Assembly: GCA_015063125.1 (NCBI GenBank)
Contig: SUTB01000002.1
Location: forward strand, 152,720 to 216,719
Direction: 5' to 3'
From: Thermoplasmata archaeon
GTDB taxonomy: Archaea; Thermoplasmatota; Thermoplasmata; Methanomassiliicoccales; Methanomethylophilaceae
DNA: 64,000 nucleotides
Positions 39,211-58,566 of this stretch are shown here, piece by piece (positions within the stretch are counted from its first letter, which is position 1; the number at the start of each line of letters is the position of its first letter). Both the position numbers and the translations under genes were made by a program. Below the pieces are notes generated by a model. That model did no database searches, had not been told where the DNA came from, and saw only the letters and a list, made by a program, of their open reading frames with translations.

Positions 39211-40143
39211 ATGGGCATGGACCAGAACATCGTTGTCACGGCACAGGAAATCCGTGACATGAAGATCCGCGGAGCGGGCAGGATCGCCAGGGCGGGAGCC
39301 GATGCGATGAGGAAGTTCGCAGAATCCTATTCAGGGTCGGATATCGCCGCGTTCCGGAAGGACATGGACGAGGCTTCCAAGGTTCTTCTGGATTCCAGGC
39401 CGACCGCGGTCTCGCTGTGGAACGGTGTGCAGGCATCGATGAAGGGCGTCAAGGACGAGGACGATATCGAATCGGCCAAGGCATTGCTTATCTCGAACTC
39501 GGAGCAGTTCATCAAGGAATCCGAGGAGGCGGTGAGGACAATCGCCAAGATCGGTGCCAAGAGGATCGAGGACGGCGATACGATAATGACGCATTGCAAC
39601 AGCAGCGTCGCCATAGGGGCGATCGTCGAGGCCTTCAAGCAGGGCAAGGACATCAAGGTGTTCGCAACGGAGTCCCGTCCATGGAGGCAGGGCATCCTCA
39701 CGGTCAACGACCTGGCCAAAGAGGGAATCGATACCACCCTGATAATCGACAGCGCCGTGCGTCTGGTCATGAAGAAGGTCGACAAGGTGCTTGTGGGAGC
39801 CGATACGATAACATCCCACGGAGCATTGGTGAACAAGATAGGCACCTCCCAGGTCGCAATGGCGGCCAAGGAGGCCAGGGTCCAGTTCTACACTTGCAGC
39901 GAGACCTACAAGTTCTCGCCGCTGACTTTGGACGGGGACCTCGTCAAGATAGAAGAGCGTGAGACGTCGGAGGTCGTGAAGCCCGGGGAGATCCCGGATT
40001 CGGTGAAGATATACAACCCGGTGTTCGACATCACGCCAGCACAGTACATCGACGGCATAATCACGGAGATCGGACTCATATCGCCAGGTTCCGTGTATGA
40101 CGTTATGGAAAGGAAGTTCGGAACGGAAATGATGAAGGAGTGA
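39211..40143 (+). CDS. Ribose-1,5-bisphosphate isomerase
   Basis: A 310-residue member of the eIF2B-alpha-like family. MKIRGAGRIARAGADAM is the family signature at the N-terminus, HCNSSVAIGAIVEAFKQG follows mid-protein, and the VLVGADTITSHGALVNKIGT segment contains the catalytic Asp. It turns ribose 1,5-bisphosphate into ribulose 1,5-bisphosphate for RuBisCO. The RuBisCO gene starts five bases later, and AMP phosphorylase after it, so the role is well supported by context. A TATA-like TTTTAA about 20 bases ahead of the ATG suggests a leaderless message; a second ATG at 39217 is possible. Confidence 0.93.
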   Translation: MGMDQNIVVTAQEIRDMKIRGAGRIARAGADAMRKFAESYSGSDIAAFRKDMDEASKVLLDSRPTAVSLWNGVQASMKGVKDEDDIESAKALLISNSEQFIKESEEAVRTIAKIGAKRIEDGDTIMTHCNSSVAIGAIVEAFKQGKDIKVFATESRPWRQGILTVNDLAKEGIDTTLIIDSAVRLVMKKVDKVLVGADTITSHGALVNKIGTSQVAMAAKEARVQFYTCSETYKFSPLTLDGDLVKIEERETSEVVKPGEIPDSVKIYNPVFDITPAQYIDGIITEIGLISPGSVYDVMERKFGTEMMKE

Positions 40144-40147
40144 GAGC

Positions 40148-41377
40148 ATGGATTCGTATCTGCATTTGGGAGAGCCGGTTGATCCGGACAAATATGTCGT
40201 CTGCAAGTACCGCGTCACCACTGACCTTCCTATAGAGAAGGCCGCAGAGGCGATCGCAGCGGAGCAGTCCACGGGAACGTGGACGGGTATCTCCACCCTC
40301 GACCATGAGGTCTTCAGCAATCTCGGAGCGAGGGTCGTGGACATCAGCGGCGACAACATCATCGTCGAGTTCCCCACCGATGATTTCAGCATCGAGGTCG
40401 GAGCCGTTCCCCAGATCCTCAGCGTAATAGCCGGAAACCTGTTCGGACTGGGTGCACTCAAGGGAGTGAGGCTGGAGGATGTAACGTTCCCCAAGTCCAT
40501 ACTCGAGCAGTTCAAGGGACCGAAGTTCGGTGCGGACGGTATCAGGAAGGCCCTGGACCGTCCCGAGAAGCCGCTGGTCGGTACCATAGTCAAGCCCAAG
40601 ATCGGTCTCGATCCGAAGAAGACTGCTGAATACGTCTACGAGGCGGGAGCCGGAGGGCTCACCAACTCTAAGGATGATGAGACCCTGGTGGATCAGCCTT
40701 TCTGTCCCATAGAGGACAGGACATTGGCGGTCGCAGAGGCCTTGGACAGATTGGAATCCGAAGGCCACAAGATGATGCATGCAATCAATGTGAGCACTCG
40801 CGGAGATAAGATCGTCGAGCTCGCAGAGAAGGTGCAGTCGTGGGGTGCAAGGGAGATCATGGTCGATGTCATCACATGCGGATTCGGAGCCGTCCAGGCA
40901 TTGGCCGAGGACCCCTCTATCAAAGTCCCTATCCATGTCCACAGGACCATGCACGGAGCGTTCACCAAGGATCCGTTACACGGTGTGGCGATGCTCCCGC
41001 TCACGAAGCTGACCAGGATGTGCGGCGGAGATGCCCTGCACATCGGTACCCTCGGAGTGGGAAAGATGTCGGGCAGCACCAAGGAGGACGCGAACCTTCC
41101 TGCATGTCTCGGCAACGATGTCCCCTATAAGACAGTCATGCCTGTATGCTCCGGAGGAGTGTATCCGGGAATAGTCGAGGCCATCGTGAAGAAGGCAGGC
41201 AACAACGTGCAGATACAGGCCGGAGGCGGAGTGGCCGGACATCCTGGCGGTGTCAGGGCCGGTGCCATGGGTATGAGCCAAGCCGTGGACGCGGCGTTCC
41301 TGGGCATCCCCAAGGAGGAGTACGCCAAGGACCACAACGAACTGAAGATCGCACTTGAAACGTGGGGGTCGAAATGA
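40148..41377 (+). CDS. rbcL: Type III ribulose-bisphosphate carboxylase
   Basis: A 409-residue archaeal RuBisCO large subunit that carboxylates ribulose 1,5-bisphosphate to two 3-phosphoglycerates. VGTIVKPKIGL carries the catalytic Lys149, SKDDE the Lys175 to be carbamylated with Asp177 and Glu178 as magnesium ligands, HVHRTMHGAF a His ligand region, and GVGKMSGS loop 6 with Lys306. The bases before SKDDE read GGLTN where most enzymes have GGxDF. It acts with the isomerase before it and the phosphorylase after it in nucleotide salvage, not in autotrophic fixation. Confidence 0.94.
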   Translation: MDSYLHLGEPVDPDKYVVCKYRVTTDLPIEKAAEAIAAEQSTGTWTGISTLDHEVFSNLGARVVDISGDNIIVEFPTDDFSIEVGAVPQILSVIAGNLFGLGALKGVRLEDVTFPKSILEQFKGPKFGADGIRKALDRPEKPLVGTIVKPKIGLDPKKTAEYVYEAGAGGLTNSKDDETLVDQPFCPIEDRTLAVAEALDRLESEGHKMMHAINVSTRGDKIVELAEKVQSWGAREIMVDVITCGFGAVQALAEDPSIKVPIHVHRTMHGAFTKDPLHGVAMLPLTKLTRMCGGDALHIGTLGVGKMSGSTKEDANLPACLGNDVPYKTVMPVCSGGVYPGIVEAIVKKAGNNVQIQAGGGVAGHPGGVRAGAMGMSQAVDAAFLGIPKEEYAKDHNELKIALETWGSK

Positions 41378-42885
41378 AATTCAAAGTCAAGTCGTACGAA
41401 GTGTTCATTAGGACACCGACCATCCTCTTGGATGAGAATGACTGCATAGCATTGGGCCTGAAGGAGAACGACCGTGTGATGATCACCGGGGAAAGGGCCA
41501 CCATCGCTGTGATGACCTATGGAAAGGGCGTCATAGAGTCCGGAACCGCAGGAATTCCTGTCTCACTTCTGAAGAAGACCGGTACGAACAAGGACGGAAC
41601 GGTCGACATAGTGTTCGCCCATGCCCCCGATTCCGTCAGGTACATCCGCATGAAGATGGACGGGGAGAAGCTGGACAAGGACCAGATCGAGGCAATCGTC
41701 AGGGACATCCTGGAGAACAGGTTGTCCGAGATGGAGGTCTCCGCATGGCTTACCGCCCTGTACATCAACGGTATGGACATCGATGAGATCGCCAACTTCA
41801 CCATGGCAATGGCCAACACCGGTGACATCCTCAAGTTCTCGAGGAAACCTGTGTTCGACTTCCACAGTCTGGGAGGCGTTCCCGGAAACAAGATCACACC
41901 CATCGTGGTATCCATAGTGGCCGCAGCCGGACTGATGATCCCCAAGACATCGTCCCGTGCGATCAGCAGTGCCTGCGGAACATCGGACTTCGTCGAGACG
42001 TTCTGCGATGTGGAGTTGGAGGCCAGCAAGGTCATGGCGATCTCAGAGGAGGTCGGCGGAGTGTTCGCCTGGGGCGGATCGATGAACCTGGCCCCCGTCG
42101 ATGACATGGTCATCAAGATAGAGCACCCCCTCGGAATCAACCCCAGGGCACAGATGCTCGCATCCATCATGAGCAAGAAGGTAGCAATGGGCTCCACGCA
42201 TCTCCTGGTCGATATCCCGATGGGATCCGGTACCAAGGTCCCTACGCTGGAGATGGCGAAGTCCTATGCCCGTGACCTGATGGACCTGGGAGAGAGGATC
42301 GGCATGCACGTCGAGTGTGCGATAACATATGCCGACCAGCCTGTCGGCAACGCCATAGGTCCCAATCTGGAGGCCAGGGAGTGCATAAGCATCCTGGAGG
42401 GAGAGAAGCATCCGTCCAGCGTGATCGAGAAGGCATGCGAGTGCGCCGGAATAATCCTGGAGATGGCAGGCATCAGCAACGGGTTCGAGAAGGCCAAGCA
42501 GATCCTGGAATCAGGAGAGGCCCACAAGAAGTTCATAGAGATCGTGGCCGCCCAGAACGGCAGACCCGACCTTAAGTCAACAGACCTGCAGCCCGGCAAG
42601 TACACCGTTGATGTGGTGGCGAGTCATGCAGGTTACGTCCATTCGATCCGCAACAAGGAGATCGTCAACGTGGCGAAGATCGCCGGGGCACCCGCGGACA
42701 AGGGTGCCGGTCTGATGGTGTACAAGAAGAAGGGCCAGAGGGTCGAGGAAGGAGAGGTCCTAATGACCATCTACGCCGAAAGCGAGGCGAAGCTCACCCG
42801 TGCCCAGAAGGCCGCTGTCAGCAATTCGCCCTTCGACATCGAGGGAATGCTCCTCAAAAGGGTCACCGACGTCAAGATGAGATGA
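41374..42885 (+). CDS. deoA: AMP phosphorylase
   Basis: A 503-residue enzyme of the thymidine phosphorylase superfamily in its archaeal AMP-specific form, splitting AMP and phosphate into adenine and ribose 1,5-bisphosphate. The N-terminal barrel-like domain (about 1-85) is unique to this form. HSLGGVPGNKITPI binds phosphate, and the SSRAISSACGTSDF and PMGSGTKVPTLEMA segments are diagnostic. Its ATG overlaps the rbcL stop codon by four bases, with GGGGGTC upstream. It is the entry enzyme of the pathway. Confidence 0.95.
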   Translation: MKFKVKSYEVFIRTPTILLDENDCIALGLKENDRVMITGERATIAVMTYGKGVIESGTAGIPVSLLKKTGTNKDGTVDIVFAHAPDSVRYIRMKMDGEKLDKDQIEAIVRDILENRLSEMEVSAWLTALYINGMDIDEIANFTMAMANTGDILKFSRKPVFDFHSLGGVPGNKITPIVVSIVAAAGLMIPKTSSRAISSACGTSDFVETFCDVELEASKVMAISEEVGGVFAWGGSMNLAPVDDMVIKIEHPLGINPRAQMLASIMSKKVAMGSTHLLVDIPMGSGTKVPTLEMAKSYARDLMDLGERIGMHVECAITYADQPVGNAIGPNLEARECISILEGEKHPSSVIEKACECAGIILEMAGISNGFEKAKQILESGEAHKKFIEIVAAQNGRPDLKSTDLQPGKYTVDVVASHAGYVHSIRNKEIVNVAKIAGAPADKGAGLMVYKKKGQRVEEGEVLMTIYAESEAKLTRAQKAAVSNSPFDIEGMLLKRVTDVKMR

Positions 42886-48745: not shown

Positions 48746-49552
48746 TCATTCCTTGCTCATCTCGCGGGACCTCTCTATGGTCCCGTCAACGGCATTGGAC
48801 ATGGCTGAACGCATGCCCATGTCCTCGAGGATCTTGACACCGACGATAGTGGTTCCTCCGGGGGAGCATACCTCGTCCCTCAGCTAATCGGGGTGCTTAC
48901 CGGTCTCGAGGACCATCTTCGCCGCTCCGAGCATCGATTGTGAGGCCAATTTGACAGCCTGCTCGCGTGTAAGGCCGTTAAGCACTCCTGCATCCGCTAT
49001 AGCGTCAATTACCATGTAGAAGAACGCAGGCGAGCTTCCGGCGACACCGGTCACGGCATCCATCTGCGATTCGGGTACCTCGACGGCCAAACCGACGGAA
49101 GAGAGTATCCTAGCTATCTCCGCCTTCTCATTAGAGGTCATCGAGGAGTCGCAGGTATAGCCCATAGCACCCTCTAGTACCATGCAGCAATGATTGGGCA
49201 TAACCCTAACTATCTTTGCATCTGGCACATAGGATTTTATCTTGTCGATAGAGAGTCCGGCGACGATGCTGAGGAGAATCTTGCCCTTGCCGATCGCGAC
49301 ACCCTCGTTCTTGAAAAGTCCCTCCACGTTCTTGGGTTTCACCGCAAGGACGATGAGATCGGCCTCGCCGACCATATCCGACGCCTTCTCGAAGACTTTG
49401 ACCCCGTACTGCGACGAAATATGGTCCCTAGTCTTCTTCGACGGTGCGCAGGCTACGATGCCTTCCGCGGGGAAAACACCCTTCGAGATCAACCCTCCGA
49501 TGAGGGCCTCCGCCATCTTTCCTGCGCCGATGAAACCTATGTTTGCGGACAT
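48746..49552 (-). CDS. proC: Pyrroline-5-carboxylate reductase with in-frame amber codon
   Basis: A 268-residue enzyme (if the amber is read through) that reduces pyrroline-5-carboxylate to proline. IGFIGAGKMAEALIGGL binds NADP and VTGVAGSSPAFFYM is the family motif. After GKHPD comes TAG (48886-48884), then LRDEVCSPGGTTIVGVKILE and on to a TGA at 48748. The downstream part aligns exactly with the conserved C-terminal substrate helix of ProC (HPGxLKDxVCSPGGTT), so the TAG stands for one residue, position 223, likely pyrrolysine. Without read-through the protein lacks its last 45 conserved residues. Confidence 0.9.
48884..48886 (-). other. In-frame TAG codon in proC (probable pyrrolysine)
   Basis: The minus-strand triplet at 48886-48884 is TAG, flanked on both sides by sequence coding for conserved ProC residues in the same frame. 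No TAG serves as stop codon in any gene checked in this window, fitting a genome that inserts pyrrolysine at amber codons. Confidence 0.85.
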
Positions 49553-49611
49553 GAGGTCAATATCATCCATCCAGTACTAAAAAATTGGTCAAAACGTCCT
49601 AACTCGGCCTC

Positions 49612-49668: not shown

Positions 49669-50031
49669 ATGTTACTAATTATGTACTACATGCCGTTGGC
49701 CTTCGTAGCGCTACTAACGTTAGCTTTCGGGCCATTAGCATGGTTGGTATCTAGGTTCTTAAGGCCTGAGAAACCCACTGAGTGGATGGAACAGACCTAC
49801 GAATGTGGTTCCGAACCCATCGGAGATGCCCACGTGCAGTTCAGATTCCAGTACTACACGTTCGCTCTGATCTTCGTCGTGTTTGACCTGGTGGCAACAT
49901 TCCTGCTCATGTGGGCAATCGCATTCGCAGGCCTTTCTGCCACAGCCCAGCTGATGATGATCATCTTCTTCGGTATCATGGTTCTCGGAGTCGCGTACTC
50001 TCTGAAAAAGGAGGCAGAAGTATGGATATGA
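49669..50031 (+). CDS. fpoA: F420H2 dehydrogenase-like complex subunit FpoA
   Basis: A 120-residue membrane subunit equivalent to NuoA of complex I, with three membrane helices. The YECGSEPIGDAHVQFRFQYY loop holds the conserved Cys and the FALIFVVFDLVATFLL helix the conserved Asp/Glu-region residues. It opens a twelve-gene operon. Its stop overlaps the fpoB start region. Confidence 0.95.
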   Translation: MLLIMYYMPLAFVALLTLAFGPLAWLVSRFLRPEKPTEWMEQTYECGSEPIGDAHVQFRFQYYTFALIFVVFDLVATFLLMWAIAFAGLSATAQLMMIIFFGIMVLGVAYSLKKEAEVWI

Positions 50032-50585
50032 GCCTATACCCCCATGCAGTCGCAATGAGTGCTGACGAGTTCATGACATGGTCGGACGCGATCATCAACG
50101 ATCTCCTCAGCACCGGAACGAAAAAGACAGTGGACAAGTTGACAGGACCCATCTGGGCTTGGGGTATGAAGAACTCCATGCACCCTCTGCACTGGGGTCT
50201 TGCGTGCTGCGCTCTCGAGATGGCAGCGGCATCGGCACCTAGGTACGATGCGGAGCGTTACGGTATGATCTACCGTTCCTCCCCCAGGCAGACAGATATT
50301 CTCCTGGTCAACGGTTGGATCTCCAAGAAGATCCGTCCCGACCTCAGGCGTCTCTACGAGATGATTCCGAACCCCAAGTGGGTCGTAGCCATGGGAGAGT
50401 GCGCCATCTCTGGAGGACCCTGGTACGACTCCTACAACTGCGTACAGGGACTTGACCAGATCGTCCCCGTCGACGTGTACATCCCCGGATGTCCTGCACG
50501 TCCCGACGCGATGATCGACGGTTTCATGCTCCTTCAGAAGAAGATCGAGAACTACTTCCGCAGAGGAAACTTCATGGAGGACTGA
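50022..50585 (+). CDS. fpoB: FpoB, cluster N2 subunit
   Basis: A 187-residue homologue of NuoB, which binds the last iron-sulfur cluster (N2) before the quinone-like carrier. The cluster ligands are Cys62, Cys63, Cys127 and Cys157 (ACCALEM, GECAIS, PGCPARPDA). The ATG at 50022 lies inside the end of fpoA and has GGAGG eight bases upstream; a second ATG six bases later is possible. Confidence 0.95.
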   Translation: MDMSLYPHAVAMSADEFMTWSDAIINDLLSTGTKKTVDKLTGPIWAWGMKNSMHPLHWGLACCALEMAAASAPRYDAERYGMIYRSSPRQTDILLVNGWISKKIRPDLRRLYEMIPNPKWVVAMGECAISGGPWYDSYNCVQGLDQIVPVDVYIPGCPARPDAMIDGFMLLQKKIENYFRRGNFMED

Positions 50586-50587
50586 GG

Positions 50588-51052
50588 ATGGCGGAAGTTT
50601 ATCAGAGTCCTTCTGTCGATGAGATCACATCGGCACTCAAAGCAAAGTTCCCCGACGTCGAGATCGTCGAGACAGAGGAGCGCAGGGTCAAAGCCAAGTG
50701 CCCCAGGGAGATCTCGCACGACGTCTGCAAGTTCATCCACGACAACCTGACCTTCGAGCACTGCTCGGTCGTCACAGCCGTGGACTACGTGGACCACCTC
50801 ATGGTCGTCTACCTTCTCTCCAACTACTACAACGGTGTCATGATCGACCTCAACGTCGATGTGCCCGCCGACGATCTCCACATCGCCTGTGTTACAGACA
50901 TCTGGCAGGGAGCTAACTGGCATGAGAGGGAGACCTGGGAGCTCTTCGGAATTGTCTTCGACAACCACCCGAGGCTCGAGAGGCTGCTCACACCTCAGAA
51001 CTACGAATTCTTCCCCTTCAGGAAGTCATACAAGATGAGGAGTCAGGAGTGA
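50588..51052 (+). CDS. fpoC: FpoC subunit
   Basis: A 154-residue homologue of NuoC (30-kDa subunit of complex I) in the peripheral arm. The family signature is in WHERETWELFGIVFDNHPRLERLLT. The ATG lies two bases behind the fpoB stop. Confidence 0.93.
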   Translation: MAEVYQSPSVDEITSALKAKFPDVEIVETEERRVKAKCPREISHDVCKFIHDNLTFEHCSVVTAVDYVDHLMVVYLLSNYYNGVMIDLNVDVPADDLHIACVTDIWQGANWHERETWELFGIVFDNHPRLERLLTPQNYEFFPFRKSYKMRSQE

Positions 51053-51056
51053 TACG

Positions 51057-52211
51057 ATGGCAGATTCACTTGTACCAGTTTTGGAAGCCCAAGAGAAGAT
51101 GGACACCGACAAGATGTGGGTCATCTGGGGACCTCAGCACCCGTTCTCTCACGGACTCTGGACACTCAAGCTCCAGATCGATGGAGAGTTCTGTACGGAC
51201 GCTGACCCCATAGTCGGATACCTTCACCGCGGTTGGGAGAAGGAGACCGAGAACAGGGATTACGCAAGGATCATCCCCATGACCGACCGTCTCTGCTATT
51301 GTGCATCGATGACATACTCTCACCTGTACTGTATGACAGTTGAGAAGGCGCTCGGAATCGACATCCCTGAGAAGGCAAAGTACATCAGGATCGTCGCAGA
51401 CGAGGTCTGCCGTATCCAGTCGCACCTGATGTGGCTCGCGGCGGTAGGTACCGATATGGGTAACCTGACCGTTTTCCTGTGGGCCATGAGGGAGAGGGAG
51501 TACTTCCTCGATCTCAACGTCAAGCTGTGCGGAGCCAGGATGACCACCAACTTCCCGCGTATCGGTGGAGTCAGGAACGACACCACTGAGCTGTTCGACA
51601 GGGATATCCTGAGGACAGTCAACCGTTTCGAGAAGGCAATGTGGGATATCATCTACCTGATCGACGATTCATCGGTCTTCGTATCGAGGATGAGAAAGGT
51701 CAGCTACATGACACGCGAACAGTGTGCCAACATGGGTCTCACCGGTCCCGCAATGAGGGGATGCGGTGTCGATTTCGATATCCGCCGTGACGACCCCTAT
51801 GACAATTACGATAAGGTCGACTTCGAGGTCCCTGTCCTGAACAAAGACACCAAGGTCGGAGACACGTACGACAGGTACATGATCCGTATCGAGGAGATGT
51901 TCCAGTCATGCGACATCATCAGGCAGGCAGTGAAGAAGATCGAAGCACTCGGAAAGAACGCACCCTACAGGATAAAGACCCCCACCAAGGTCCCTGCCGG
52001 AACGACATTCGGAAGGCTCGAGGACCCCCGTGGAGAATCCATCATGTACCTCGCATCCGACGGTACAGACAAGCCCTACAGGCTTAAGGTGCGCAGCCCG
52101 ATATTTACGAACGTATCATGCTCCAAGGCGATGTGTCAGGGCGTCAGGATCGCTGATGTCCCCGCTGTGCTCGCACAGATCGACATGTGCCTCGGAGAGA
52201 CAGACAGGTGA
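51057..52211 (+). CDS. fpoD: FpoD subunit
   Basis: A 384-residue homologue of NuoD (49-kDa subunit), which with FpoB forms the binding site of the membrane carrier. GPQHPFSHG near the N-terminus, the ETENRDYARIIPMTDRLCY segment and the RLEDPRGESIMYLASDG segment are family marks. The nickel ligands of hydrogenase relatives are absent, so it is not a hydrogenase large subunit. Confidence 0.95.
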   Translation: MADSLVPVLEAQEKMDTDKMWVIWGPQHPFSHGLWTLKLQIDGEFCTDADPIVGYLHRGWEKETENRDYARIIPMTDRLCYCASMTYSHLYCMTVEKALGIDIPEKAKYIRIVADEVCRIQSHLMWLAAVGTDMGNLTVFLWAMREREYFLDLNVKLCGARMTTNFPRIGGVRNDTTELFDRDILRTVNRFEKAMWDIIYLIDDSSVFVSRMRKVSYMTREQCANMGLTGPAMRGCGVDFDIRRDDPYDNYDKVDFEVPVLNKDTKVGDTYDRYMIRIEEMFQSCDIIRQAVKKIEALGKNAPYRIKTPTKVPAGTTFGRLEDPRGESIMYLASDGTDKPYRLKVRSPIFTNVSCSKAMCQGVRIADVPAVLAQIDMCLGETDR

Positions 52212-52215
52212 GAAG

Positions 52216-53385
52216 ATGGCAGTTGCTCAATATTCATCTATACTGGATTGGATCAACTATGGGGACCCCTATCAGAACCCCTTCACGCCCTTCATCACCG
52301 ACAACCTGCCCTACGACATCTGTTACGGTCTCTGGGAGATCATCGGCGGAACACTCGCATGGTTGATCAACCTGCTGTTCCCCAACAACTGGCTGTCCGA
52401 GTGGCTCGTCAGTGACCAGGTGACCGTGCTGTTCGCACTGGTCCTCTTCATGCTGGTCATCTTCATCGTGGCCTTCGTGGTCGTCCTGTTGAACCTATGG
52501 ATGGAGCGTAAGGTCCTCGGAAGGTTGATGGACAGGCGCGGAACAATGGTCGGAATGAAAGGATTCCTCCAGTGTGTCGCTGACGGTCTCAAGACCTTCA
52601 TGAAGGAGAACACAATCCCCGCAAAGGTCGACAAGATGACATACATCTGGTGTGTGTCGCTCATCGTCGGTCTCTCGTGCCTGGTCGCGTGTATGGTCCC
52701 CCTGTCCGACAGGTGGTATGTCGTCAACTACGACACAGGTCTCCTGATTATCATGGCGTTCTACGCCCTCGCACCGTTCTTCATCCTGGTTTCCGGATGG
52801 GCCCAGAACAACAAGTACTCCCTCATCGGAGGAATCAGGGCCGCAGAACTGATGATCTCTTACGAGGTCCCCATGCTGATCATCATCGCTACGATCTCAC
52901 TGCTCGCCGGCAGCTTCAACATCGGAGACATCGTCGCCCTGCAGGACACAGTTTGGCTGGTCGTCCCCATGTTCTTGGGATTCTTGGTCTTCTTCTTCTG
53001 CTCCATTGCAGAGTGTGAGAGGCCCCCCTTCGACATCGCGGAGGCAGAGACCGAGCTGGTCGAGGGATGGCAGACCGAGTACGCAGGAATGAAATGGGGT
53101 CTCATCATGCTCGCAGACTACCTAAGGGGTTCAGTCTCATGCGGTATGGTCGCGATCCTGTTCCTCGGAGGATGGACTATCCCCTTCATCGGTGGCACAG
53201 CCCTTCCCGAGATTGTCTTCCTGATCAAGGCATGGTTCGTGTTCTTCCTGATGATCGTCGTCAGAGGAGCGATCGCCCGTGTCAGGCCCGACCAGATCCT
53301 GAACTTGGGATGGAAGGTCTTCATGCCTCTGTCCGTGTTCAACCTGGCCATTGCCGTTCTTCTTAAGATAGGAGGGTTCTACTGA
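52216..53385 (+). CDS. fpoH: FpoH membrane subunit
   Basis: A 389-residue homologue of NuoH with about eight to nine membrane helices, linking the peripheral arm to the pumping subunits. WMERKVLGRLMDRRG and SIAECERPPFDIAEAETELVEGW are diagnostic, the latter being the loop at the carrier site. The start at 52216 gives an N-terminal extension of about 60 residues before the first conserved helix, with one further helix in it. Confidence 0.95.
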   Translation: MAVAQYSSILDWINYGDPYQNPFTPFITDNLPYDICYGLWEIIGGTLAWLINLLFPNNWLSEWLVSDQVTVLFALVLFMLVIFIVAFVVVLLNLWMERKVLGRLMDRRGTMVGMKGFLQCVADGLKTFMKENTIPAKVDKMTYIWCVSLIVGLSCLVACMVPLSDRWYVVNYDTGLLIIMAFYALAPFFILVSGWAQNNKYSLIGGIRAAELMISYEVPMLIIIATISLLAGSFNIGDIVALQDTVWLVVPMFLGFLVFFFCSIAECERPPFDIAEAETELVEGWQTEYAGMKWGLIMLADYLRGSVSCGMVAILFLGGWTIPFIGGTALPEIVFLIKAWFVFFLMIVVRGAIARVRPDQILNLGWKVFMPLSVFNLAIAVLLKIGGFY

Positions 53386-54125
53386 TGGCGATGAAGTATC
53401 TAGATAAGTATCCGAAGAACCTCGCAAAGAGCCTTTGGATAATGAAGCCTACCTGGACGGTCTTTAAGCTCTTCTGCAAGACAGTCGTCCACAGGCCCGT
53501 CACCGTCCTGTACCCCTATGAGAAGGAGTGGATTCCGGAGAACTACCGCGGACGCCCCGGACTCAGGTTCGACAAGTGCGTTGGCTGCGGAATGTGTGTA
53601 CGCATGTGCGTAACGCAGGCCATCAAGCTCATCGAGGTCGAAGATGACAACGGTGAAAAGGTAATGAGGCCTCAGGTCAACATCGGAAGGTGCGCATTCT
53701 GCGGATACTGCGCAGAGTACTGCCCCGTCGATGCTATGACCGTCACCCCTGAATATGAGTTGGCCGAGTACACAAGGTACGACCTGCTCTGGGGCCCCAG
53801 GAGGCTCAACTACGATAAGACGACCCCCGGAATGGAGGTCAAGCTGGAGGTTACGTTGCCTTCCGATATCGAGAACGGCAACCCCGAGAGGCGTGTCCAC
53901 ATCTTCGATGTCGACAAGCCCGAGCTCACCGACAGCAAGTGTATCGGATGCAAGAAGTGCTCCAAGGTCTGTCCCGTCGACGCCATCACAATGGTCGAGA
54001 AGGGAGTCAACGACAAGGGTAAGCCCATCGTGCGTCCTGAATTCGATAACGCGAAGTGTATCTCATGCAAGAACTGCGTGGACGCCTGTCCTAAGGATGC
54101 ACTCGAAATCAAGGAGGTGCTCTGA
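53385..54125 (+). CDS. fpoI: FpoI with four 4Fe-4S motifs
   Basis: A 246-residue subunit. The first half is a normal NuoI/FpoI, with clusters at Cys65-68-71-75 and Cys103-106-109-113. The second half adds a further ferredoxin unit: Cys186-189-192-196 (CIGCKKCSKVCP) and Cys225-228-231-235 (CISCKNCVDACP). FpoI of Methanosarcina and NuoI carry only two clusters. The added pair could be the docking or entry point for ferredoxin, since no FpoF is encoded here. The gene overlaps fpoH by one base and fpoJ by one. Confidence 0.93.
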   Translation: MAMKYLDKYPKNLAKSLWIMKPTWTVFKLFCKTVVHRPVTVLYPYEKEWIPENYRGRPGLRFDKCVGCGMCVRMCVTQAIKLIEVEDDNGEKVMRPQVNIGRCAFCGYCAEYCPVDAMTVTPEYELAEYTRYDLLWGPRRLNYDKTTPGMEVKLEVTLPSDIENGNPERRVHIFDVDKPELTDSKCIGCKKCSKVCPVDAITMVEKGVNDKGKPIVRPEFDNAKCISCKNCVDACPKDALEIKEVL

Positions 54126-54466
54126 TGGGAGTCATTTGGGATGCCCTAGTTTGGGTCTGGAACGGATTGGTCGGTTTCGGTACCTATGCACTTGACAACC
54201 TCGATCTCGTTGCATTCCTCATACTGGCAGCGATCACAATACTCGCAGCCCTGTATGTCGTGCACGACAAGGAGGTCATGCATAGCGCGTTCTACCTCGC
54301 TCTGGTTTTCTTCTGCGTAGGACTCTTCTACTTCTTCCTGGAGGCGGAGTTCCTCGGAGTCATCCAGATGCTGGTGTACGTTGGTGCTATCACCATCCTG
54401 TTCGCATTCAGCGTCATGCTGACAAGAAGATACATTGTAACAAAGGAGGATGAGGACGATGAGTAA
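54125..54466 (+). CDS. fpoJ: FpoJ, N-terminal half
   Basis: A 113-residue membrane protein equal to the first three helices of NuoJ; the conserved AEFLGVIQMLVYVGAITILFAF segment forms the bent helix that couples redox chemistry to pumping. NuoJ is split into two genes here, as in Methanosarcina, where the operon also has two J genes. Confidence 0.92.
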   Translation: MGVIWDALVWVWNGLVGFGTYALDNLDLVAFLILAAITILAALYVVHDKEVMHSAFYLALVFFCVGLFYFFLEAEFLGVIQMLVYVGAITILFAFSVMLTRRYIVTKEDEDDE

Positions 54467-54761
54467 GAGATCCTCTAAGGGCCTTGTTGTGGTCGGAATC
54501 CTCCTGGTGGTCCTCGTAGCAGGAATATTCGCCTCGAACATCGAGACGAACTATGATGAGCCTCAGGGGGGACCTACATTTGCAGGAACAACACACGATC
54601 CTGGGTTGGACATATACAACCCTGACGGAACTCTCAAGAAGAACAGTCTGCCCTATGCTGTGTTCGAGGAGTACGGATTCGTGCTGATCCCCTTGGCTTT
54701 GCTCATGTTCGGAGCCATGGTCGGCGGAGTCGTCATTTCGAAGGAGGAGGTGGAAGAATGA
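54459..54761 (+). CDS. FpoJ, C-terminal half
   Basis: A 100-residue protein with two membrane helices at its ends (about 10-30 and 74-94) around a polar outer loop. It corresponds to the C-terminal part of NuoJ (EEYGFVLIPLALLMFGAMVGGVVI). The ATG at 54459 has GGAGG nine bases upstream and lies inside the end of the first J gene. Assignment depends mostly on position in the operon. Confidence 0.85.
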   Translation: MSKRSSKGLVVVGILLVVLVAGIFASNIETNYDEPQGGPTFAGTTHDPGLDIYNPDGTLKKNSLPYAVFEEYGFVLIPLALLMFGAMVGGVVISKEEVEE

Positions 54762-55066
54762 TTCCAATGGAGTACTTCCTCGTCCTCGGAGCGATCCTCT
54801 TCTGTATCGGGGCATACGGTGTCCTGACGAAGAGCAACGCGATCGTCGTCCTGATGTGTATCGAGCTTATGCTCAACGCGGCGAACATCAACTTCGTCAC
54901 ATTCGCGGCATTCAACTACGATATCGTCGGTCAGGCGTTCGTCATCATGTCGATCTCCGTCGCAGCGGCAGAGGTCGCAGTGGGAATCGCTATCCTGCTC
55001 AACGCATACAAGATTAGAAAGTCCACGGAGCTCGATGATGCTGAGCTCACATCTATGAGGTGGTAA
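54758..55066 (+). CDS. fpoK: FpoK membrane subunit
   Basis: A 102-residue homologue of NuoK with three membrane helices. The two conserved Glu residues of the pump path are visible in VLMCIELMLNAANINFV and AAAEVAVGIAILL. Its ATG overlaps the preceding stop by four bases. Confidence 0.95.
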   Translation: MIPMEYFLVLGAILFCIGAYGVLTKSNAIVVLMCIELMLNAANINFVTFAAFNYDIVGQAFVIMSISVAAAEVAVGIAILLNAYKIRKSTELDDAELTSMRW

Positions 55067-55067
55067 G

Positions 55068-57068
55068 ATGATAGCTGAATACACATGGCTCGTTCCTTTC
55101 ATCCCTATGATGTGTTTCCTCATCATCGGTATCATCGGAAGGAAGACACCCGAGAAGGGTGGTTACATCGCAATAGCCGGAGCCCTGCTCTCGTTCCTGA
55201 TCGCACTGGCGATCAGCGTGGAGTACCTCGGCAGCTCCGAATACGAAATGGGACTTCCCATTACCGAATCGATCAGGTGGTTCGCCATCGGCGACTACAC
55301 ACTGAACCTCGGATACTACGTCGACGGACTGACATGCATGATGATGCTGTTCTCGTCCTTCATCTCGACACTGATCTTCATCTACTCGATCGGCTACATG
55401 CACGACCAGGGAGAGAGGAAGAACAGGTACTACGCCGAGGTCTCGCTGTTCCTTACCGGAATGCTCGGACTCATTGTATCAAGCAACTTCCTGGAGCTGT
55501 TCATCTTCTGGGAGGTCATGGGACTCTGTTCCTACCTGCTGATCGGATTCTGGTCATTCAGGCACCACGAGGGAGACGCTGCTTCCGCCAACGCGGCATC
55601 CGCAGCAAAGAAGGCTTTCCTCGTCACCCGTATGGGAGATGTCTGCCTCATGGGAGGCCTGTTTATCTTCCTCAACCTGTTCCACAGCTTGGACTACACG
55701 GACATGTTCGCAGCAGCAGAGCAGGTCGCACAGTCGAACCCCGAGCTCATGACCCTCGGTCTCCTCCTCATGTTCGGAGGAGTCATCGGAAAGAGCGCTC
55801 AGTTCCCTCTGCACGACTGGCTGCCTGATGCAATGGCAGGTCCTACCACAGTATCATCTCTGATACACGCAGCAACCATGGTTAAGGCCGGAGTCTACCT
55901 CGTAGCAAGGGCCTTCCCCATCTACGTCATGGACGGCAATGTCATGCTCTTCGTGGGCATCATCGGAGGCGTAACCGCCTTCATCGCAGCCACCATGGCT
56001 CTCAACAACATGAACATCAAGAAGGTCCTGGCCTACTCCACCGTCTCACAGCTCGGATACATGATCCTCGCTCTGGGAGCAGGAGGATACCTCTGGTCGC
56101 TCGGATACTACGAGCTCGGAGCGCTCGGATTCTTCGCAGGATGCTTCCACATGGTCAACCACGCCTTCTTCAAGGCACTCCTGTTCATGGGCTCCGGATC
56201 CGTCATCCACGGAACCGGAACAGAGGACATGAGGCTGATGGGTGGCCTGTTCGGAAAGATGAAGATAACAGCAATCACCATGCTCTTCGGATGTCTGTCC
56301 ATCGCTGGAATCCCGATCTTCAGCGGATTCTGGTCCAAGGATCTGGTCATCGATACCGCTATGCTCGCATTCGAGCACGGTGTCGGAGACGCAACCACAT
56401 GGTTCCTCGTCCTTTGGATCCTCGCAGTCGTTACCGCATTCATGACGGCGTTCTACATGTTCCGCATGTGGTTCATGACCTTCATGGGCGAGCCCCGCGA
56501 GAACGCACAGCACTGCCACGGAGAGTCTCCCAAGACAATGACCACCCCCTTGATCATCCTCGCGGTATTCGCACTGATCAGCGGACTGTTCATGTTCTTC
56601 GGACTCGACCAGATGCTTGCATTCGAGGGAGTCATGATCGACGGAACCGAGCACGGAATCGAGCTGTTCACCAACCCGTACACCTACCTCACTCTGGTGC
56701 TCGCGGCAATTGGTATCCTCATCGCATACGGCATGTACGTAAAGCAGTCCATCAACCCCGGAAAGTTCAACAAGAACGGAGAGTCTGGACTGTACAAAGC
56801 ACTCACAAAGAGATGGTGGTTCCCCGACCTCTACAACCAGATCTCATGGAAGTTCGGTTACGGAGTCGCAAAGGGAGTCAACTACGTCGACAGACAGATC
56901 GTGGACGGAACAGTCAACGGTCTGTCCGCAGCAGTCGTCGGAGGAGGAGATGTCCTCAGCAAGGTCCAGACCGGACACGTCCAGGACTACTCGTCCATCG
57001 TGCTGCTCGGAGTATCGGTCCTATCCGTGCTCTGCATTGTGATCTTCGCATTACTGGGAGGTTTCTGA
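55068..57068 (+). CDS. fpoL: FpoL pumping subunit
   Basis: A 666-residue homologue of NuoL, an antiporter-like subunit with about 16 membrane helices and the long lateral helix at the C-terminus. WEVMGLCSYLLIGFW carries the key Glu, and SAQFPLHDWLPDAMAGPTTVSSLIHAATMVKAG the conserved Lys/His path. Length is typical. Confidence 0.96.
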   Translation: MIAEYTWLVPFIPMMCFLIIGIIGRKTPEKGGYIAIAGALLSFLIALAISVEYLGSSEYEMGLPITESIRWFAIGDYTLNLGYYVDGLTCMMMLFSSFISTLIFIYSIGYMHDQGERKNRYYAEVSLFLTGMLGLIVSSNFLELFIFWEVMGLCSYLLIGFWSFRHHEGDAASANAASAAKKAFLVTRMGDVCLMGGLFIFLNLFHSLDYTDMFAAAEQVAQSNPELMTLGLLLMFGGVIGKSAQFPLHDWLPDAMAGPTTVSSLIHAATMVKAGVYLVARAFPIYVMDGNVMLFVGIIGGVTAFIAATMALNNMNIKKVLAYSTVSQLGYMILALGAGGYLWSLGYYELGALGFFAGCFHMVNHAFFKALLFMGSGSVIHGTGTEDMRLMGGLFGKMKITAITMLFGCLSIAGIPIFSGFWSKDLVIDTAMLAFEHGVGDATTWFLVLWILAVVTAFMTAFYMFRMWFMTFMGEPRENAQHCHGESPKTMTTPLIILAVFALISGLFMFFGLDQMLAFEGVMIDGTEHGIELFTNPYTYLTLVLAAIGILIAYGMYVKQSINPGKFNKNGESGLYKALTKRWWFPDLYNQISWKFGYGVAKGVNYVDRQIVDGTVNGLSAAVVGGGDVLSKVQTGHVQDYSSIVLLGVSVLSVLCIVIFALLGGF

Positions 57069-57069
57069 T

Positions 57070-58566
57070 ATGAGTATGATTCTTTCAAGTCTGATCCTCA
57101 TCCCCCTGATCGGAGCGATAATCGCTCTGCTCATGGGCGGTTCGAGGGAGAAGTACTCGAAGTACGTCGCTATCGGATTCTCCGCAGTGACGCTCGTCAT
57201 TTCCCTGCTCCTTATGCTGGGAGTGTTCGGCGACTTCGCCGATCTCAGCGAGAGCTTCGAGTGGATTAGCACATCGACGTTCATCATGAACTACTCTCTG
57301 ACAATCGATGGACTCAGCATCCTGATGGTCTTCCTGACCGCACTGCTGGTCCTCCTCGTCAACGTATTCTCGTTGGACGAGCACAGGGAGAACAACAACT
57401 ACTTCTACGCCCTGATCATGGCGATGGAAGTCGGTCTCATGGGTGTCTACACCGCATCCGACTACTTCCTGTTCTACATCATGTGGGAGGTAACTCTCAT
57501 CCCGATGTACTTCATGATCTCATGGTACGGAGGACCTCGCAGGCACTACTCTGCGATCAAGTTCTTCATCTACACACACGTAGCATCGCTGGTCATGCTG
57601 ATCGGTATCTTCGTACTCGGTTACGAGTCCGTTGAGCCCGGAATGGCAGTCAACTTCTCGTTCGACGCCATCAAGCTCGGTATCGCGGATGCGGGAATCA
57701 CTATTCAGTCCCTCATCTTCGCCATGCTGTTCTTCGGATTCATGGTCAAGATGCCTTCAGTACCGTTCCACACTTGGCTGCCTGACGCCCACACAGAGGC
57801 ACCTACCGAGGGATCCGTCCTTCTGGCCGGTGTCATGCTGAAGATGGGATCCTACGGTATCATCCGTATCTGTATCGAGGCCCTGCCCGATGCAGCATAC
57901 GTCTGGCAGTGGGTCATCATCGCGATCGCCATCGTCTCCATCATCTACGGAGCATACGGATGTATCGCACAGACAGACCTCAAGAAGATGGTTGCATTCT
58001 CATCCATCAGCCACATGGGAATGGTCATGCTCGGTATCGGATGTATGTCCGAGGCCGGAATCACATTCGCGGTCTTCCAGATGTTCGCACACGGACTCAT
58101 CACCGCAATGCTGTTCATGGTCTGCGGTATGACCGGACACAAGGTCGGAACCAGAGAGATCCCCCTCCTCGGTGGACTCGCTGGAAGGATGCCTATCTAT
58201 GCGACATTCATGATGATCGCGTTCATGGCATCTCTCGGACTGCCCGGACTCGTCGGATTCTGGGGAGAGTTCCCTGTCATCATGGCGTTCTATGAGTTCA
58301 TCCTCGAGAACGATGTGATCTGGATGCTCCTGTTCTGTATGCTGTCCCTCATGCTGACCGCAGGATACTACCTGTGGGCAATGCAGAGGACCCTGTTCGG
58401 ACCCGAGACCACAAAGATCGACCTTTCGAAGGTTCACGATGTCGCGCACTTCGAGTTCGCGGCCCTGGCGGTCCTGTCAATCCTGGTCGCATTCTTCGGA
58501 GTGTGGCCCGATGCGGCTCTCCAGTACATCGAATCCTACTCCACCATCCTTATGGGGGTGATTTGA
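57070..58566 (+). CDS. fpoM: FpoM pumping subunit
   Basis: A 498-residue homologue of NuoM with about 14 membrane helices. YIMWEVTLIPMYFMISWYGG holds the conserved Glu and VKMPSVPFHTWLPDAHTEAPTEGSVLLAGVMLK the proton path with the conserved Lys. It starts two bases behind fpoL. Confidence 0.96.
   Translation: MSMILSSLILIPLIGAIIALLMGGSREKYSKYVAIGFSAVTLVISLLLMLGVFGDFADLSESFEWISTSTFIMNYSLTIDGLSILMVFLTALLVLLVNVFSLDEHRENNNYFYALIMAMEVGLMGVYTASDYFLFYIMWEVTLIPMYFMISWYGGPRRHYSAIKFFIYTHVASLVMLIGIFVLGYESVEPGMAVNFSFDAIKLGIADAGITIQSLIFAMLFFGFMVKMPSVPFHTWLPDAHTEAPTEGSVLLAGVMLKMGSYGIIRICIEALPDAAYVWQWVIIAIAIVSIIYGAYGCIAQTDLKKMVAFSSISHMGMVMLGIGCMSEAGITFAVFQMFAHGLITAMLFMVCGMTGHKVGTREIPLLGGLAGRMPIYATFMMIAFMASLGLPGLVGFWGEFPVIMAFYEFILENDVIWMLLFCMLSLMLTAGYYLWAMQRTLFGPETTKIDLSKVHDVAHFEFAALAVLSILVAFFGVWPDAALQYIESYSTILMGVI

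Follow-up and report, generated by a model that had tools for sequence, protein, structure and literature searches.

An amber codon private to one strain within proC, the gene for pyrroline-5-carboxylate reductase, in a pyrrolysine-encoding archaeon of the Methanomassiliicoccales

In the genome studied here, proC is interrupted at codon 223 by an in-frame TAG, behind which the coding sequence continues up to a TGA. The gene very likely works: Gln-223, encoded by CAG, would have become TAG in one strain and would be decoded as pyrrolysine (Pyl), so that the change amounts to a tolerated missense mutation. The window, i.e. the whole stretch of 64,000 nucleotides that was analysed (G000:C1:152720-216719), belongs to a genome of 1.65 Mb, G000, in an 8-contig assembly. 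A second strain of the same species, G005, served for comparison.

The proC gene and its in-frame TAG

The frame reads MSANIGFIGAGKM...ETGKHPD up to the TAG and then LRDEVCSPGGTTIVGV...REMSKE up to the TGA (Table 1), which gives a ProC of 268 residues when the TAG is taken as sense. An alternative in-frame ATG upstream, at 49570, would lengthen the frame; the genus alignment favoured the start at 49552. Against TIGR00112 (proC) the read-through protein scored 283.3 bits over residues 5-265, where the curated cut-off is 196.75, and it therefore belongs to this family as a full-length match. Both the Rossmann and the P5CR dimer domain were found with Pfam, and the P5CR_dimer match (E 2.9e-41), with one TAG inside it, spans this codon uninterrupted. 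Homologous coding sequence thus lies on either side of the TAG.

Table 1. Features of the proC locus (positions in the window)
Feature	Position	Strand	Evidence
proC, pyrroline-5-carboxylate reductase	48746..49552	-	TIGR00112 above cut-off; P5CR_dimer through the TAG; orthologue alignment
In-frame TAG, codon 223 of proC	48884..48886	-	CAG (Gln) in G005, the second strain of the species
45 codons after the TAG: remainder of helix 221-228, SPGGTT motif, last two helices	48749..48883	-	nucleotide-identical to G005
TGA terminator of proC	48746..48748	-	

A sequence-only reading had placed the TAG at residue 223 and had recognised 45 matching codons between it and the TGA. TIGR00112, P5CR_dimer and the G005 copy all bear this out, and the TAG and its coding continuation are real, coordinates included. 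They are not a product of chance, since ProC is free of stops in the 135 other genomes of the order that gave a ProC match and the G005 coding sequence is identical except for its CAG. In the predicted structure (pLDDT 93) residue 223 sits near the N-terminal end of helix 221-228 and not far from the SPGG motif; according to this model, a stop at 223 would cost the protein most of that helix and two later ones.

Codon 223 in related genomes

Over the 804-bp coding sequence, proC of G005 differs in one base, which makes the codon CAG there and TAG here. Among 28 proC genes of the genus (both strains counted), codon 223 was CAG in 14, GTC or GTG in 10, ATC in two and GAG in one; the sole TAG is the G000 copy. 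When ProC was followed through the order, 136 genomes gave a match to it, and G000 was the only one of these with a stop inside the gene; the other 135 had none. In the wider alignment residue 223 was Q, V, I, E, K, T or others, and the adjoining Leu-224 was invariant. The TAG is derived, since the closest relatives have CAG. Given the CAG in the same-species strain, the lack of a stop in ProC elsewhere in the order and the variable residue, the TAG is, as judged from the aligned sequences, a strain-private C-to-T change and a putative Gln-to-Pyl missense mutation.

These data speak against the stronger form of the proposal made from the sequence, in which proline synthesis would involve an enzyme requiring Pyl. 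Conservation of the TAG among ProC orthologues, of the kind seen in Pyl-requiring MtmB-like proteins, was not found: all other copies in the genus have sense codons. Pyl-223 might nevertheless be important in ProC, for a new catalytic or regulatory role that couples proline synthesis to the supply of methylamines or Pyl; the predicted location at the start of helix 221-228, near the SPGG motif, would suit such a role, and Pyl is chemically unusual. However, the site is variable, ordinary residues occupy it in the same-species strain and in all other relatives examined, and ProC lacks the TAG conservation that marks the methyltransferases. We regard a functional role of Pyl-223 as highly improbable.

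The same recent origin removes an argument that had been raised against a loss of function, namely that a nonsense mutation should have been accompanied by damage in the downstream part. The coding sequence shows no further disabling change, but the TAG, a single strain-private substitution, is too young for decay to be visible, and the intact 3' part is therefore uninformative. If the TAG were a recent true nonsense mutation, UAG would terminate, ProC would end at residue 222 and the strain would need external proline; the rest of the coding sequence, being that of the intact G005 copy, would look just as it does. Whether UAG is likely to terminate in this genome has to be judged from its decoding machinery and its use of TAG.

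Pyrrolysine machinery and the use of TAG in the genome

The pylTSBCD genes, sought elsewhere in the genome, form a complete set. pylS, pylB, pylC and pylD scored above curated cut-offs in one cluster (G000:C4, ~681.5-685.4 kb), which is adjoined by a tRNA-Pyl with the anticodon CTA and flanked by two MtmB genes with in-frame TAG. An MtbB-like gene with in-frame TAG (MtbB named by eye) was found on C1, and pylS is likewise encoded by G005. One aRF1 above cut-off was detected in G000; some termination at UAG may therefore still occur, which is in favour of a nonsense mutation. ProC is encoded by a single-copy gene, the only one in the genome with P5CR_dimer. Two further genes of the pathway, proB (named by eye) and proA, lie side by side and are intact, which argues against a strain that has lost proline synthesis. 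A second proline route via ornithine cyclodeaminase was considered and discounted, as the match was weak, with 34 bits over a third of the model. Proline synthesis in G000 would be tied to the Pyl supply only on two conditions, namely that the read-through is real and that ProC is the sole proline route.

Use of TAG as a terminator was surveyed in 512 kb, in stretches covering ~31% of the genome, with a simple gene caller based on codon usage. The 478 called genes ended in TGA (406), TAA (63) or TAG (9). Six of these nine carry on behind the TAG with a strong coding signal: two MtmB, MtbB, ProC, a sulfhydrylase and a protein of 721 residues. One further case is ambiguous, and in the remaining two a TGA follows soon after. 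The 721-residue read-through frame (G000:C4:354430-356595, minus strand) has its TAG at codon 360 with a strong coding signal on both sides; a Pfam search with this protein gave no match. The only two TAGs in the sample that resemble real stops (G000:C1:46596-47489 and G000:C3:74626-76155) have a TGA in the same frame 3 and 11 codons further on, as though for backup. Two antisense ORFs of the window, TAG-ending in a crude first gene call, were rejected as genes. With nine TAG ends among 478, six of them continuing and two backed by TGA, TAG hardly serves as a stop in G000, and in this genome it appears close to a pure sense codon.

Pyl read-through is the best explanation of the proC TAG because the pylTSBCD set and the amber codons in MtmB and MtbB coincide with scarce TAG stops. 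After one C-to-T transition, confined to the G000 strain, had turned CAG into TAG at codon 223, Pyl would be made by PylBCD, PylS would charge tRNA-Pyl(CUA) and this tRNA would decode the TAG. The product would be a full-length ProC with Pyl replacing Gln at a variable position, which should be neutral or nearly neutral. As UAG is read by the Pyl-tRNA and TAG is almost never a terminator, the proC TAG would act as a tolerated missense mutation. The sequence, the pyl genes, the scarcity of TAG stops, the polymorphism and the variable site are shown directly; insertion of Pyl in ProC, its efficiency and the activity of the enzyme are what we infer from this evidence. Of the sequence-only reading, Pyl at residue 223 thus stands as the best reading for a pyl-encoding member of the Methanomassiliicoccales with TAG as a near-pure sense codon, whereas a special role of Pyl does not. 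A terminating UAG is unlikely in a genome that encodes tRNA-Pyl and pylSBCD and in which hardly any gene depends on TAG for termination.

Comparison of the two strains gave further evidence against termination. G000 and G005 are ~99.3% identical over the window, and the codon comparison covered 155 genes with 46,090 codons. Synonymous differences numbered 1180 and nonsynonymous ones 217. In addition there were two in-frame stops, each of them a TAG in G000; no in-frame TGA or TAA difference occurred in the 155 genes. In a smaller comparison, 39 genes of G000 were inspected for stops in their G005 counterparts, and no stop differences were found. Given the codon composition, a new stop arising at random would be TAG in 57-61% of cases, so two TAGs out of two have P ~0.32-0.37; since this is not significant alone, the lack of TGA and TAA was weighed against missense rates. 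If stops were tolerated as the average missense change, one lineage should have gained 2.5-3.2 TAGs. The same assumption predicts 3-5 TGA or TAA gains (3.2-4.9, both lineages together), and the probability of finding none is 0.008-0.04. New in-frame stops between the strains are thus TAG only, which speaks against proC having suffered an ordinary nonsense mutation.

The second strain-private TAG is found at codon 302 of an O-acetylhomoserine-sulfhydrylase-type gene (Cys_Met_Meta_PP; G000:C1:105912-107207, minus strand), outside the window. The codon is GAG in G005; a local alignment ending 5 bases short had suggested a TAG common to both strains, which the full comparison corrected. Downstream of the TAG the two strains differ in seven codons, six of them synonymously. 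Another species, G013, also has TAG at codon 302. As its gene is only ~80% identical in DNA, the TAG was most likely gained twice, by convergence. This recurrence supports sense decoding and counts against a sequencing error at that sulfhydrylase site. In yet another species of the genus, a second sulfhydrylase paralogue (G007:C5:2668-3936) has a TAG near the C-terminus, at codon 444 of the called frame.

The proC TAG might also be a sequencing, assembly or mixed-population artefact with C as the true base, as in G005; it is a single-base difference in an assembly of eight contigs. The excess of synonymous over nonsynonymous differences between the strains, however, indicates strong filtering by selection, so few of these differences are errors, and the comparable private TAG of the sulfhydrylase is found again at codon 302 in G013. 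An artefact is accordingly quite unlikely, and a decoded TAG in a working proC remains the preferred reading. A wider proposal can be put forward only tentatively, as we hold it to be somewhat less probable than its opposite: in this lineage amber codons may arise within a species in the manner of normal missense changes and nearly as often, repeatedly so at some sites such as codon 302 of the sulfhydrylase, TAG being a full sense codon, and neutral drift may in this way tie core amino-acid synthesis to Pyl in some strains.

Relation to known amber genes and genomic neighbourhood

In the methyltransferases MtmB, MtbB and MttB the TAG is conserved and Pyl is placed in the active site. ProC would share with them a TAG that is read in frame, in the same genome as regards MtmB and the MtbB-like gene; in contrast, the proC TAG is private and the ProC site variable. 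Kivenson et al. reportedly described in Science in 2025 archaea with a 'Pyl code', in which TAG is a general sense codon. G000 resembles these in that TAG is depleted as a terminator and present in many kinds of genes.

The named relatives of the species are Methanomethylophilaceae. With M. alvus, ISO4-G1 and ISO4-H5 it has the order in common, and with ISO4-G1 very probably also the genus. Sixteen amber proteins beyond the methyltransferases were described in M. alvus, where the frequency of TAG as a stop was given as 1.6% (Borrel et al. 2014, PMC4153887). That study already proposed that amber codons arise as mutations that are stable and that Pyl can thereby become indispensable for growth, and it described PYLIS-like signals as not obligatory. 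ISO4-G1 has 25 Pyl genes in all (PMC4824259), and the 46 of ISO4-H5 include adenylate kinase and phosphoglucose/phosphomannose isomerase (PMC5011839).

The proC case is like these putative housekeeping Pyl proteins of the Methanomassiliicoccales in combining an in-frame TAG in an ordinary enzyme and sense codons in relatives with pylTSBCD and rare TAG stops. It is different in that the TAG is a polymorphism within the species, a near-identical strain having the sense codon. In the parts of the three reports that were available to us, ProC is not named among the putative Pyl proteins of M. alvus, ISO4-G1 and ISO4-H5 (PMC4153887, PMC4824259, PMC5011839), and a literature search found no Pyl or amber case for ProC. 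The novelty suggested earlier is not borne out for housekeeping amber enzymes of this order, which these papers had already reported: ProC adds one such enzyme to the known amber list of the Methanomassiliicoccales and is not a new kind of phenomenon.

The value of the case lies in the naturally occurring pair of strains, ~99% identical, with CAG/TAG in proC, GAG/TAG in the sulfhydrylase gene and no further in-frame stop in 155 genes. With this pair one can test how core genes acquire amber codons and whether the Pyl supply limits growth outside methylamine metabolism. Standard annotation would call proC and the sulfhydrylase gene broken and would predict a false proline auxotrophy.

Two other loci of the window, both on the plus strand and both named by eye, were also seen. 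At 39211-42885, three adjacent genes resemble ribose-1,5-bisphosphate isomerase, archaeal RuBisCO and AMP phosphorylase and form a putative AMP-salvage RuBisCO pathway. A putative Fpo-like complex I operon occupies 49669-58566; it runs opposite to proC, and ~120 bases separate the two starts.
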